A stretch of 64,000 nucleotides of DNA from Pseudomonadota bacterium (GTDB taxonomy: Bacteria; Pseudomonadota; Alphaproteobacteria; Micavibrionales; CSBR16-224). Where the stretch lies: contig CP053449.1 in NCBI GenBank assembly GCA_013285465.1, positions 62,001 to 126,000 of the forward strand. The letters run 5' to 3'. Under the pieces are notes generated by a model. It was given only the letters and a program-made list of their open reading frames with translations, did no database searches and was not told where the DNA came from. Made by a program: the position numbers and the translations under genes. Numbering within the stretch: position 1 is the stretch's first letter; each line of letters begins with the position of its first letter. Of the stretch, positions 10,272 through 15,212 are shown piece by piece.

Positions 10272-11663
10272 TTATTTTCCAGAACTTTGCGGTGTCGGCG
10301 GGGCAATAATGCCGTCGCCGGGAGCGTCGATGCTGATGGTAGGAGACGGATTTTTGCGCCGTCCGCCCACGCCGGAGGAAAGCGCCCAGACAGATGTATT
10401 AAACGCACCGCAACCGCGGCATAACGGTTTCCATTTTTTGCCGGACTGTCCGCAGGAGCGGCAGACCCATGCGGGTTTTCCGGGTGTTTCGGCGGCCATT
10501 TCCAGCCATTCCCGTGCTTTTCCTTCATCACCGCCATCGACCAGTTCCAGCTTGGCCAGCATGCGGTAGTCACCGGATTGTTTGAACAGCCCGCGTGCTT
10601 CTTCCCATTTTTCCGCAGCCATGGCCGCGCGCCCCAATATGGCAGCGGAAGCGCTGCTATGCGGTGCCTTTTTGAACAAGCGGCGTACCCAGTAATAGCG
10701 GTTTTCTGCGCGGTCCAAATCGCTGGCATCTTTCTTGCGCAGCGCCGGTGTCATGGAATGCCACAATTCCTGTAAATCCGGATGCTGGTTCGTTTCCCAT
10801 GTTTTCTCGACCACTTTGATCGCAGCGCGTTGCTTATTGGTTTCCAGCAGCAGGCGGGCATAGAAAACAGCTGCCGGCGCAAAAGACGGGTCGATGCGAT
10901 AGGCTTTTTTCGCCAGACTGATTGCCGTGTGCAGAATGTCCTGATCTTCGGTTTCCATGGCGCGCGCCAGCAGGAGTGCCTGACGGTGATGTTCGCCCGC
11001 TATGCGGTCAATAGCACCGAGACGGACGGCTTTGGACAGGCTTTGCTCGGCCTTTTGCCATTGCCCCTGCGTGGCTTCATTTTCAAAAAGCTGTGCAACG
11101 ATCCATGGCTGTTTCGGGGCGATCAGCTCCGCATGCTGCATCAATTCGACCAGACGGGCATAATCATTTTCATTTGCGGCCAGTTTCATCAAGCCGCGAA
11201 TCCCGAAGAAAGAGGCGTGTTTATCATCCAGCAGGGTTTCAAATTCCAGCTTGGCGGCGGCAGTGTCACCGGCCATTAAGGCGGCTTGTGCGGTCAGTAA
11301 ACCCGTCAGTGGCGCATCGGGAAGAAGTTTCTTTGCGCGTTTTGCCTGTTTGGCGGCGCCTGTGCCGTCACCTGCGGCAACGGAAGCCAGACCGCGGGTA
11401 ATGGCAAGATAGCCGTTTTCGCGGCTTTGCACTTCGCGGTAATGGCGGACGGCCTTTGGAACGGAAATAAAAGCGCGGTAAAAACGGTAGCCGAGTGCAA
11501 AAAGCACAACAATAAAAGTGATAAAGAACAGCAGGAACTGTGTGGATGTTTCAATCGTGTAATCCTGCCAGTCGATACGGACATCACCGGGATGGGCCAT
11601 CACCCATCCGACCGCAGCGACCAGAAGACCCAGCCGTAATATAAACCAGATTGCCCGTATCAT
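10272..11663 (-). CDS. hemY: HemY-like membrane TPR protein
   Basis: This inner-membrane protein is found beside heme-synthesis genes; its biochemical role is not settled. Two N-terminal transmembrane helices (about residues 4-23 and 42-62) are followed by the HemY_N region (FYRAF, KAVRHYREVQSRENGYLAITRGLA split over about 63-100) and TPR helices over about 100-400. The C-terminus has a zinc-ribbon-like CRSCG...CRGCGAF, which other alphaproteobacterial HemY proteins also carry. It is downstream of the Mic60-like gene in the hemC-hemD-Mic60-hemY order. The length of 463 is normal. Confidence 0.85.
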   Translation of the reverse strand: MIRAIWFILRLGLLVAAVGWVMAHPGDVRIDWQDYTIETSTQFLLFFITFIVVLFALGYRFYRAFISVPKAVRHYREVQSRENGYLAITRGLASVAAGDGTGAAKQAKRAKKLLPDAPLTGLLTAQAALMAGDTAAAKLEFETLLDDKHASFFGIRGLMKLAANENDYARLVELMQHAELIAPKQPWIVAQLFENEATQGQWQKAEQSLSKAVRLGAIDRIAGEHHRQALLLARAMETEDQDILHTAISLAKKAYRIDPSFAPAAVFYARLLLETNKQRAAIKVVEKTWETNQHPDLQELWHSMTPALRKKDASDLDRAENRYYWVRRLFKKAPHSSASAAILGRAAMAAEKWEEARGLFKQSGDYRMLAKLELVDGGDEGKAREWLEMAAETPGKPAWVCRSCGQSGKKWKPLCRGCGAFNTSVWALSSGVGGRRKNPSPTISIDAPGDGIIAPPTPQSSGK

Positions 11664-11719: not shown

Positions 11720-13501
11720 TTAATCAAACTCTATGACGGTTTGCTGGTTGGGGTTTTTTGTCGGGTCCCATTGCAGATTAAGCGGTTTTCCGCCTTTCGG
11801 GATGCCGAGAGGCTGTAGGAAATTACGGTCAATAAAGTTTTCCATGCTGTCGATGGAGACGGAACCTGCGCGTCCTCCGCTGCCGTTTGAAAGGCGTCGC
11901 AGAATATCCTGACTGATCTTCATATTCGCATCCTCGGCCAGCAGGGCGGCGCGGGCTTTTTGTACCCATTTTTCTGCGGCTTTTCCGGCGGGTCCTTCAA
12001 GATTTTGCAGGGTTTGTACCGCACCGCGGACATCACCTTTTAAAATCTGTGCATGTGCCGTATTGACGACATTGGTGATGGGATGGTTGGGCGTCAGGAT
12101 ACGTTCGCCGTCTTTGGTGACAGTGACAAGACTGCTGAAACGCTGGGCGGCAAGATCGCTGATGGATAAATCTTCTCCCGATAATCCGGCGGCGACGATA
12201 TCCGTTGCCAAATCGCCGAATTCCGATTGCAGTGCATCAGGCGTGAGAATACCGGATTCGGCATAAGGCGCCATTTTATTGATTGCGGCGGATAACTCCG
12301 GAGAATTGCCGACAAGGTCGCGGATGATTTGCAGATCATCTTTGAAAGGACGACCGCTGCCGACGCTTTCACGGAATTGTCCGAGCGCCAGCAGCATTGC
12401 GGCCGCACCCAGATCCTGACGGCTGACATCCTGCAGCAGTCTTGCGAGTTCTTCATTTTTTTCGCGGGCATCGGCAACAGCATCATCCAGCCTGTTCACA
12501 TCACCTTGCATATGTTGAATAACGCCTTGCAGGTTTTTCACCGATTCATTGACATTCTCTTTTTTGCCGGAGCCGGTCATGCTGTCGATACGGTCCATTA
12601 AACCGTTCAGGCTGGAATACTGGCTTTCAAGTCTTTCAATACGGCTGCCGATTGTTGCGCCGCCGATTTTGCCGATCGCACCGACGGTTCTGGAAATCGT
12701 GTCCGTGCGGTTTTCCAGTTTTTCCAGTTTCTGATGCAGAAGACCGGCATAAGACGGGGAATTAATGGCATTGCCGCGTTGAACATCTGTTAAGGCGATG
12801 CCGAGATCATTCAGGCGTTTTTCAATTGCGGCAACACGATGTGCGCGTTCCTGCAAAGAATCATATTCCGGCTTCATCATAAAAATAAAGGCGGTTGCAA
12901 TCAGCATGTAAAGAACGGAGGCGGTCATAATCGTCCGTTCAACGAAATTCCATTTTGTCTGCCAGACGACCTGACGGCGGCGGCGATCCATAAAGGCGCG
13001 GCGGTCAACACCTGTCCGGCGCTGGACGCCTGCGCGGCGTTCCGGGCCTTTGTAATTCGGGTCCAATCCTTTACGGCGGTCCTGCCCCGAGCGGCGCTCC
13101 TTGGCGGAGCGGCGGCCATTGGGGTTACGGTCTTCGCGGCGGTCATCAGGGATGATGATATCATTGCCGCTTTCAAGATAGCGGACGGCTTTCTCATTGC
13201 CATGCACCGCTGTCGCGGGGGACGGTGTTGCGCCGCTGACGGTCTGGCTTGTGGTGGAGCTGATCGCCATATTTCCGGTTTCATTGCCGGATTGCTGTTC
13301 CGCTGCGGATTCGTAGATATCAATCCCCTCGTCCTCTGCCAGTGCGGTCAGCTGTTCCAGACGGTTATCCGGAATACTGTCACGCTGTTTCCAGCCCTGT
13401 ACGGTGCTGGGGGTCAGCCCCATTTTTTTCGCAAGCGGGCGGATACCGCCGAAACGGTTGATAATTTCTTCGGCGGAGAGGGGAGAGCTCTTTTTGATCA
13501 T
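11720..13501 (-). CDS. Mic60/mitofilin-like membrane protein with N-terminal HTH
   Basis: The place between hemD and hemY, one transmembrane helix (about residues 190-210), a long coiled coil (about 215-390) and a C-terminal region of mitofilin type (small Ala-rich helices with EKWVQKAR at about 510-520) mark it as an alphaproteobacterial Mic60 homologue, which shapes inner-membrane invaginations. The N-terminus is unusual. Residues 8-55 read as a helix-turn-helix (FGGIRPLAKKMGLTPSTVQGW), and 120-185 hold several copies of an Arg-rich RR-x-G-x-x-RR motif, all on the presumed cytoplasmic side. The HTH and Mic60 assignments are from motif and context only. Confidence 0.7.
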   Translation of the reverse strand: MIKKSSPLSAEEIINRFGGIRPLAKKMGLTPSTVQGWKQRDSIPDNRLEQLTALAEDEGIDIYESAAEQQSGNETGNMAISSTTSQTVSGATPSPATAVHGNEKAVRYLESGNDIIIPDDRREDRNPNGRRSAKERRSGQDRRKGLDPNYKGPERRAGVQRRTGVDRRAFMDRRRRQVVWQTKWNFVERTIMTASVLYMLIATAFIFMMKPEYDSLQERAHRVAAIEKRLNDLGIALTDVQRGNAINSPSYAGLLHQKLEKLENRTDTISRTVGAIGKIGGATIGSRIERLESQYSSLNGLMDRIDSMTGSGKKENVNESVKNLQGVIQHMQGDVNRLDDAVADAREKNEELARLLQDVSRQDLGAAAMLLALGQFRESVGSGRPFKDDLQIIRDLVGNSPELSAAINKMAPYAESGILTPDALQSEFGDLATDIVAAGLSGEDLSISDLAAQRFSSLVTVTKDGERILTPNHPITNVVNTAHAQILKGDVRGAVQTLQNLEGPAGKAAEKWVQKARAALLAEDANMKISQDILRRLSNGSGGRAGSVSIDSMENFIDRNFLQPLGIPKGGKPLNLQWDPTKNPNQQTVIEFD

Positions 13502-13518: not shown

Positions 13519-14247
13519 TTATCTGAATTGCTGTTCAATGCAATGCAACATATGTGCATGGTCGGGTTTTTCCGCTGTGAGGATATTTCCCCACTGTACG
13601 TCTTTTATCGCCTGCGCCGTACGTGTGCTGATACATATTGCTGTTATTTGACCATATTTTTCCGTCAGCTCATAGTTTTTTGACAGACGGATAAAGTTCT
13701 CAGCCGTACGTACGGAATAAAATAACACACAAGCTATCTTTTCATTATGCAGGAGGGATTGTAAATTTTTTGTAAAGTTTTCGGCACGTACGGCGGAATA
13801 AACCGTAAAAGTCGTGATTTTGGTGTTTTTCACGTCAAAATGATGGGCGCGGTCCCTGCCGCAGATATGCAGCATGTTTTCAGGCAGGGTGTTTTGGGCG
13901 GATTCTCTTTTAAAAACAGCCTCTAACGCTGTTGCGGAAGCTGCTGTGGCGGCGATATTGCGGAATCCTTTTTTTTTCAAAGCGGCTGCGGTTTTTTCGC
14001 CGACGGTATAGACCGGTTTTTGCAACAGTTCAGGAGGAATATCCTGCCAATGGGCGGCGGCGCGCGCGCTGGTGAAAATCAGTGCATCCGCCTGTACGTC
14101 TTTTGGTAATTGGTGTGAAACCGGACGGATTTCCAGCATCGGTTCGGAAAAAGTTTCAAAACCGCGTCTTTGCAGTTCACCGGCAAGTGCCGCAGCCTGC
14201 TGTGCAGGGCGGGTAATCAGAATGGTCGGTGTACGTATAGCCGTCAC
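13519..14247 (-). CDS. hemD: Uroporphyrinogen-III synthase
   Basis: HemD closes and inverts ring D of hydroxymethylbilane to make uroporphyrinogen III. The sequence is weakly conserved in this family. The supports are the N-terminal ILITRPAQQAAALAGEL, the motif DALIFTSARAA at about residues 55-65, a length of 242, and the position directly after hemC, which it overlaps by 4 bases (GTG start inside the hemC stop). Translational coupling is likely. The AT-richer 3' half does not disturb the frame. Confidence 0.85.
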   Translation of the reverse strand: MTAIRTPTILITRPAQQAAALAGELQRRGFETFSEPMLEIRPVSHQLPKDVQADALIFTSARAAAHWQDIPPELLQKPVYTVGEKTAAALKKKGFRNIAATAASATALEAVFKRESAQNTLPENMLHICGRDRAHHFDVKNTKITTFTVYSAVRAENFTKNLQSLLHNEKIACVLFYSVRTAENFIRLSKNYELTEKYGQITAICISTRTAQAIKDVQWGNILTAEKPDHAHMLHCIEQQFR

Positions 14248-15212
14248 GCGACCCGCCCCATCAGTTGATCCAGAATATCCTGCGGGACTTCGGCGCGGAT
14301 ATCGCGCCCCAGCTTGTCACCGATGGCGCTCGCCGTGCCGTCATCGGTCTTTTGTACGGGTTTTGTGACGGCGGCATGCCAGAGCATTTCGCCGTTTTCG
14401 GTGGCAAGCGCGCCTTCCAATGTCAATTTTTCTTCCTGTTCATTATAGACCGCATGGGCGGCAATCGGGGTTTTGCAGGAGCCGTCGAGGGCGGCGATAA
14501 AGCCGCGCTCCGCCGCGACGCAAAGTGCCGTCACGGGGCAGTTGACGGGGGCAAGCAGATCACGGCAGCGCGTATCCCCTTTGCGGATTTCAACGCCGAC
14601 TGCGCCCTGCCCTGCGGCGGGCAGCATGTCATCGGCATCCATCACAGCGGTAATCTCATCGGTCAGGCCAAGGCGGTTTAAGCCTGCGACGGCCAAAAAG
14701 GTTGCATCCGCCACGCCGTCGCGCAGTTTTTGCAGGCGGGTTTCGACATTGCCGCGGAACAGCACGACATTTAAATCAGGGCGTTTTGCCAGCGCAAAAG
14801 CCTTGCGGCGGACACCTGCCGTGCCAAGCGTCGCACCTTTAGGCAGGTCCTCAAGCGAGGCGTATTTGACCGACAGGAACGCATCATGCGCATCTTCGCG
14901 CGGCAGGATACAAGCCATTTCGCCTTCATCCGGCAGAAAGGCGGGGACATCTTTCATGGAATGTACCGCCATATCGATACGGCCTGCGAAAAGCGCTTCC
15001 TCGATTTCCTTGATGAATAATCCCTTGCCGCCGGCTTCCAGCAGGCTGCGGTCCTGAATTTTATCGCCGCTGGTGGTGATGATTTCGATGGCGATTGCGC
15101 TCTCTGCCGCCAGAGAAGGATGGGCGGCGCGCAAAGCATCAGCGACCATATGGGTCTGGATCAGGGCAAGGCGGCTGCCGCGCGTGCCGATGGTGACAAG
15201 GGGTTTTTCCAT
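14244..15212 (-). CDS. hemC: Porphobilinogen deaminase (hydroxymethylbilane synthase)
   Basis: HemC links four porphobilinogen molecules into hydroxymethylbilane in the cytoplasm. The N-terminal IGTRGSRLALIQT, the VHSMKDVP loop, and the dipyrromethane-cofactor cysteine in DGSCKTPIAAHA are all present. The length of 322 is usual. It is the first gene of the minus-strand hemC-hemD-Mic60-hemY series and diverges from pheA across 87 bp, which must hold both promoters. Confidence 0.95.
   Translation of the reverse strand: MEKPLVTIGTRGSRLALIQTHMVADALRAAHPSLAAESAIAIEIITTSGDKIQDRSLLEAGGKGLFIKEIEEALFAGRIDMAVHSMKDVPAFLPDEGEMACILPREDAHDAFLSVKYASLEDLPKGATLGTAGVRRKAFALAKRPDLNVVLFRGNVETRLQKLRDGVADATFLAVAGLNRLGLTDEITAVMDADDMLPAAGQGAVGVEIRKGDTRCRDLLAPVNCPVTALCVAAERGFIAALDGSCKTPIAAHAVYNEQEEKLTLEGALATENGEMLWHAAVTKPVQKTDDGTASAIGDKLGRDIRAEVPQDILDQLMGRVA

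Follow-up and report, generated by a model that had tools for sequence, protein, structure and literature searches.

Organization of the mic60 Locus

The window, by which we mean the whole analyzed stretch of 64,000 nucleotides, carries on its reverse strand an open reading frame which starts with ATG, contains no internal stop codon and encodes a protein of 593 amino acids. The gene is real, and its product combines a C-terminal mitofilin domain, characteristic of Mic60, with an N-terminal helix-turn-helix (HTH) domain, referred to as the head in the following. The features of the locus are:

10272–11663, reverse strand: hemY, downstream neighbor of mic60 (PF07219 HemY_N, E 1.6e-25)
11720–13501, reverse strand: mic60, 593 aa, Cro-like HTH head at the N-terminus (open frame; PF09731 and NF046037 above their cut-offs)
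11936–12436, reverse strand: mitofilin domain, residues 356–522 (PF09731, 39.2 bits; 7pv1, E 3.8e-10, 60-sequence profile)
12875–12934, reverse strand: membrane helix, residues about 190–209 (hydropathy maximum 2.13; helix 167–244 in the model)
12971–13141, reverse strand: Arg-rich juxtamembrane repeats, residues 121–177, five copies of [RK]Rx4[RK]R (shuffle test; mostly predicted disordered; in some relatives only)
13328–13474, reverse strand: Cro-like HTH head, residues 10–58 (NF046037; pLDDT about 91–95; Cro matches in the PDB; 47% identity to a phage Cro)
13519–14247, reverse strand: hemD, upstream neighbor of mic60 (PF02602, E 2.1e-34)
14244–15212, reverse strand: hemC (TIGR00212, E 7.7e-101)

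With hemD upstream and hemY downstream, mic60 lies in the heme gene neighborhood in which alphaproteobacterial Mic60 proteins such as that of Cereibacter (Rhodobacter) sphaeroides are encoded, and it shares with them the mitofilin domain, the coiled-coil and the N-proximal transmembrane (TM) helix. The order hemC-hemD-mic60-hemY likely represents one run with hemC as its first gene. A hemY-like frame was located 3′ of mic60 in 54 of the 64 head-bearing loci from the order to which the window genome belongs. The HemY protein of the window (10272–11663) ends in a CxxC...CxxC segment with a weak likeness to the zinc ribbon of LapB (PF18073, E 0.09); the same pattern occurred within the last 120 residues of 37 of 193 HemY-like frames, some of which are cut by locus ends.

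The C-terminus is a true mitofilin/Mic60 domain. In a Pfam scan it exceeded the PF09731 cut-off of 27.4 bits, and a profile built from 60 relatives matched the solved Mic60-Mic19 chain 7pv1. Hydropathy analysis revealed one TM helix, which is followed by a helical and coiled-coil region (predicted helices between residues 167 and 330), as expected for Mic60. Both the Mic60 identity proposed in the first-pass annotation and its estimate of roughly 190 residues ahead of the membrane helix are therefore borne out. The N-terminal side of the TM helix is rich in arginine, and according to the positive-inside rule the N-terminus presumably faces the inside of the cell. What distinguishes the window protein from headless alphaproteobacterial Mic60 is the Cro-like HTH and the long cytoplasmic linker preceding the TM helix.

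Fold and Conservation of the Head

Residues 10–62 matched the NCBIfam family NF046037 (“carph-isopro”) with 66.3 bits at a cut-off of 38. Structure prediction, which had been proposed as a check on the HTH, folded the head confidently into four helices comprising residues 10–16, 20–27, 31–40 and 45–58. Helix 2 corresponds to residues 20–27, and the recognition helix 3 to residues 31–40 (PSTVQGWKQR). Kinship with Cro was found in sequence as well as in fold: the head matched the Cro structure 3bd1 (E 2.4e-5) and P22 Cro (1rzs, E 0.0036), and N15 Cro bound to its operator DNA (6on0) was recovered as a fold match with Z 7.3, all fold matches of the head having Z below 8 and all Foldseek E-values lying above 0.001. 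Weaker fold matches (Z 3.9–4.6) include the enzymes HppE, HEPD and MPnS.

An alignment of 60 full-length head-bearing Mic60 proteins has 12 invariant columns. Ten of them fall into the head, which is by this measure the most constant part of these proteins. Among 96 Mic60 heads, R21 was present in all, P22, T33, Q35, G36 and R40 in 95 each, and W37, P44 and R47 in at least 95. Helix 3 hardly varies (0.08 bits at T33, Q35 and G36), and the exposed positions of helix 4 are variable. The alignment with Cro proteins would put R21, T33, Q35 and G36 on those faces of helices 2 and 3 that point toward the DNA. Comparison with a 90%-identical relative (L033) yielded dN/dS values of 0.054 for the head, 0.064 for residues 341–545 and 0.101 for residues 65–125; selection on the head is purifying.

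The Arginine-Rich Linker

Between head and membrane helix (residues 66–180) the motif [RK]Rx4[RK]R occurs five times and RRxGxxRR three times, which agrees with the RR-x-G-x-x-RR repeats first noticed in the sequence. Shuffled sequences contained 0.11 copies of the former motif on average, and none of 20,000 shuffles reached five. The linker following the head is probably disordered in view of the predicted model, in which pLDDT was below 50 for nearly all residues from 67 to 146 and near 50 up to about residue 160. One to five copies of the Arg motif were detected in most members of family f1, which includes the window protein, and of family f3. The motif was absent from the head-bearing Mic60 proteins of families f4 and f7, so the repeats cannot be a conserved DNA-binding device. 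A conserved function of the repeats was likewise rejected, as most head-bearing relatives are devoid of them; on this distribution the repeats are a real but lineage-specific extra, separate from the HTH.

Distribution of the Head-Mic60 Fusion

A Mic60 match was obtained in 69 of the 75 genomes of the order. Among the fetched loci, head and Mic60 part were encoded in one frame in 97 genomes, of which 64 belong to the order and 33 to other parts of the class. The 64 are out of 68 Mic60 genomes of the order with fetched loci; in one of them (G016) the head is incomplete because the contig ends there. By the same profile no head was detected in G011, G014, G044 and G058 of the order, nor in 100 Mic60 genomes outside of it. 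The counts refer to loci fetched from among the listed PF09731 matches, about a dozen of the weakest aside, and G053 of the order is not included although its head and tail share a frame. The 33 of 133 genomes outside the order do not represent a frequency, as some of these loci were chosen because they bear a head. The fusion had initially been regarded as an unusual architecture for Mic60, a view which this survey does not bear out. On the basis of these loci, both an assembly error and a recent one-off fusion were dismissed.

On a tree of 204 Mic60 parts, the head state requires 21 changes, compared to a mean of 68 and a minimum of 58 in shuffled assignments. The head thus appears either to be old and often lost or to have been gained more than once. 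Of the families on the tree, 20 consist of head-bearing and 54 of headless members only, and two are mixed. Matches to the head profile outside the class were all at or below 41 bits and mostly concerned frames of 74–121 amino acids. Two longer frames from outside the class (L392 and L393, from genomes G549 and G720; 607–614 amino acids) combine a head-like domain with a tail that resembles LeuA (2-isopropylmalate synthase) by eye.

Relationship to Phage Cro Proteins

Outside of fused proteins, the closest relatives of the head are Cro proteins of phages. Cro of Paracoccus phage Psul1 (AZV00326.1) is 47% identical over about 50 residues (E 3e-8) and adjoins CI, as does the head relative of Sinorhizobium phage phi2LM21. 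In Azospirillum phage Cd we found an unannotated cro-like frame (L346:1486–1749), which is divergent from the annotated HTH regulator. All three phages infect Alphaproteobacteria, and their proteins have the helix 3 sequence (S/T)TVQGW in common with the Mic60 head, and the fold is shared with the Cro proteins of P22, N15 and Xfaso 1 as well. Several palindromes of the type ACGYN5RCGT are located in the CI-Cro intergenic regions of the Azospirillum and Sinorhizobium phages; the Paracoccus phage carries GCGCN5GCGC instead. In the phages, Cro is an unfused protein of about 70–80 residues that takes part in the CI-Cro switch, whereas the Mic60 head is fused to a membrane protein.

The Same Head on Biosynthetic Enzymes

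In 27 of 233 classified frames the head was present and a Mic60 match absent; a contig end truncates one of these frames (G258). Pfam analysis of ten of them identified HisZ-type, CarA, alcohol-dehydrogenase-type, NnrD, SerA, PyrB-type, amino-acid kinase, CoaBC and E1 dehydrogenase partners, where the alcohol-dehydrogenase-type frame was assigned to Ccr and the amino-acid kinase frame to ArgB by eye. Most genomes with a strong head carry a single one. To judge by these frames, the head is a module of the phage Cro type which is not specific to Mic60 and is found on enzymes in other lineages, too. The original reading of an HTH on Mic60 holds for both parts, and the idea of a head peculiar to Mic60 has to be given up. 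The family name “carph-isopro”, which gives no function, seems to refer to carbamoyl-phosphate and isopropylmalate synthases, and both the CarA fusions and the LeuA-like tails fit this name. One of the ten frames, with 374 amino acids (L256:1407–2528), encodes a head of the Mic60 type and a membrane helix without any match to Pfam or to the Mic60 profile, and may be a divergent Mic60; the respective genome (G125) has a second head, located on SerA.

Palindromes were detected just upstream of the starts of the enzyme fusions, and they vary with the partner and its helix 3. TGGGAN7TCCCA precedes all four CarA fusions (L246, L248, L251 and L254; 0/200 shuffles). Among the seven HisZ fusions L260 and L263–L268, TTCATN5ATGAA was found exactly in six and within one mismatch in all (0/200 shuffles). 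The arms of both palindromes had at least two mismatches in every upstream region of the other groups compared. The two NnrD fusions (L244, L252), whose heads contain TTVQGW or TTIQGW, are both preceded by ACGYN5RCGT, a pattern that was derived from the phages first and searched upstream of NnrD afterwards; it occurred in none of 17 other fused-enzyme upstreams. It was also absent upstream of the single SerA fusion with a TTVQGW head. For the ArgB fusions (including L261, L378 and L379), TTACTN5AGTAA was present exactly in two of four cases and with one mismatch in one more, and TCACAN4TGTGA was located upstream of two of four CoaBC fusions (including L269 and L270). In a second HisZ group, TCCYGN4CRGGA was recognized by eye in two of three upstreams exactly and in one with a single mismatch. 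These group tests cover the partners other than Ccr, PyrB, PdhA and SerA.

The resulting pairs of helix 3 residues and palindrome arms include QG with ACGY, SN with TTCAT and RK with TGGGA, among others. Such partner-specific palindromes support DNA binding by the head module as a family, and the enzyme fusions probably form a class of self-regulating enzymes. Besides a collection of helix 3/palindrome pairs, they offer a simple model for enzymes that control their own expression.

Search for an Operator of Mic60

An operator near its own gene, as expected for a Cro-like domain, was not found for mic60. ACGYN5RCGT was detected upstream of mic60 in none of 63 head-bearing loci of the order and in one of 33 outside, which is about the level of shuffled sequences. 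The pattern was absent from 30 hemC upstream regions as well, and 27 linked hemC upstreams had no palindrome in common. Autoregulation of the hem operon is consequently not supported. The genome-wide search offered no usable target either: the extended pattern TACGYN5RCGTA occurred three times in the window genome, compared to 29 sites for the reversed control pattern, and the only site shared with the close relative G001 is located inside a gene. Because the prediction of an own operator failed for Mic60, three explanations come into question: the target lies elsewhere, the site is a different one, or the head has been put to another use.

Possible Function of the Head

The reading that we prefer is that Mic60 is membrane-tethered and DNA-binding at the same time, to which we assign a probability of roughly 0.6. 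The computations demonstrate the two domains and their fusion, the near-invariance of the residues expected to face DNA, the kinship with phage Cro and the palindromes ahead of enzyme fusions with related heads; DNA binding by the Mic60 head, the DNA concerned and the effect of binding are inferred. Since its helix 3 is the same as in phage Cro and in the NnrD heads, the Mic60 head would most likely bind a related palindrome. The cytoplasmic N-terminus would then be a sequence-specific DNA-binding domain of the phage Cro repressor kind, which a single membrane helix would join to the coiled-coil and mitofilin part across the membrane. In Mic60 oligomers, the heads would face the cytoplasm in pairs and could grip a 13-bp palindrome of the ACGYN5RCGT type. 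A site in the chromosome, or a promoter under regulation, would thereby be tied to patches of Mic60 in the inner membrane. In the family of the window protein, the Arg-rich linker might additionally contact lipids or nucleic acids through its charge. The suggestion in the first-pass annotation that the protein might link DNA to the curved inner membrane is supported in part: the best supported element is a membrane protein with a head that binds DNA, and no operator was found near mic60 or hemC.

A function of the head in protein binding was considered as well, in which the HTH would connect Mic60 with a protein partner in the cytoplasm, cytoskeletal or otherwise, and the basic linker would act as a juxtamembrane spacer. 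The model for this is RodZ, which has its parts in the same order (an HTH, a juxtamembrane stretch with positive charge, a single TM helix and a periplasmic part) and uses its HTH to bind MreB rather than DNA (PMC6946637). The charged stretch of RodZ is reported as unimportant for key functions, among them cell shape (PMC6946637). MreB was present in all 45 head-bearing genomes tested, an observation which is uninformative because MreB is nearly universal. RodZ differs in its HTH family (HTH_25, PF13413), which the Mic60 protein of the window (P0001) did not match in a Pfam scan with E-values up to 1, and it shows the opposite pattern of conservation. In 27 RodZ heads from head-bearing genomes, with alignment columns assigned to helices as we presume them to lie, the sequence LPGxxYxxGFxRSYA is constant and the outward start of helix 3 is variable (2.2–2.9 bits); the Mic60 heads show the reverse, with a constant helix 3 and variable surfaces of helix 4, and no conserved helix 4/5 block as would be expected for MreB binding. 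The window genome also encodes a separate RodZ-like frame. We therefore regard a RodZ-like role as unlikely.

Two further explanations appear less probable still. ToxR and CadC span the membrane once and carry their DNA-binding domain at the N-terminus, in the cytoplasm, and a tethered autoregulator of this type would repress its own hemC-hemD-mic60-hemY transcript depending on the state of the periplasm or membrane. The enzyme fusions, with palindromes just ahead of their own starts, look autoregulatory in this sense; however, the matching operator could not be found upstream of mic60 or hemC, and the HTH of these two proteins is of the winged-helix type and not Cro-like, which makes this a rather remote explanation. 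Similarly improbable is a captured structural domain without DNA binding which serves oligomerization or folding, a role ascribed to the HTH-like domain in the epoxidase HppE. It would be in line with HppE, HEPD and MPnS among the weaker fold matches and with the many losses or gains of the head on the Mic60 tree, but the invariant residues of the head lie on the predicted DNA-facing side and not on a packing surface, and recognition positions and upstream palindrome change jointly from one fusion partner to the next. By analogy, RodZ and, judged from the fold match, HppE show that folds of this kind need not bind DNA.

With the DNA-binding reading as a basis, the fusion suggests a physical link between membrane shape and genome in many Alphaproteobacteria. 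The more comprehensive proposal that Mic60 in much of this class is a DNA-binding membrane anchor coupling genome and inner-membrane architecture, that its head was captured from phage Cro or shares ancestry with it and still reads ACGYN5RCGT, and that the same module on CarA, HisZ, NnrD, ArgB, CoaBC and others defines an undescribed class of self-regulating enzymes with operators readable from sequence, is put forward tentatively, as we rate it slightly short of an even chance in its entirety.

Within the open-licence PMC literature, no paper on such a head on Mic60 or on the domain by name was found. Mitochondria received Mic60, the core subunit of MICOS, from their alphaproteobacterial ancestor (PMC12631773), and the alphaproteobacterial origin of Mic60 is given in PMC12136173 as well; the term helix-turn-helix does not occur in the accessible portions of these two MICOS papers. 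For human Mic60, the available text likewise describes no HTH and ties the protein to mitochondrial DNA (mtDNA) together with transcription factors: it is reported to co-precipitate mtDNA and TFAM and to affect mtDNA transcription (PMC4303897). The co-precipitation is a published precedent for an association of Mic60 with DNA (PMC4303897). The Cro-type head would make the age of the mitochondrial Mic60-nucleoid link concretely testable, by way of the DNA that is held and of membrane organization without the head.
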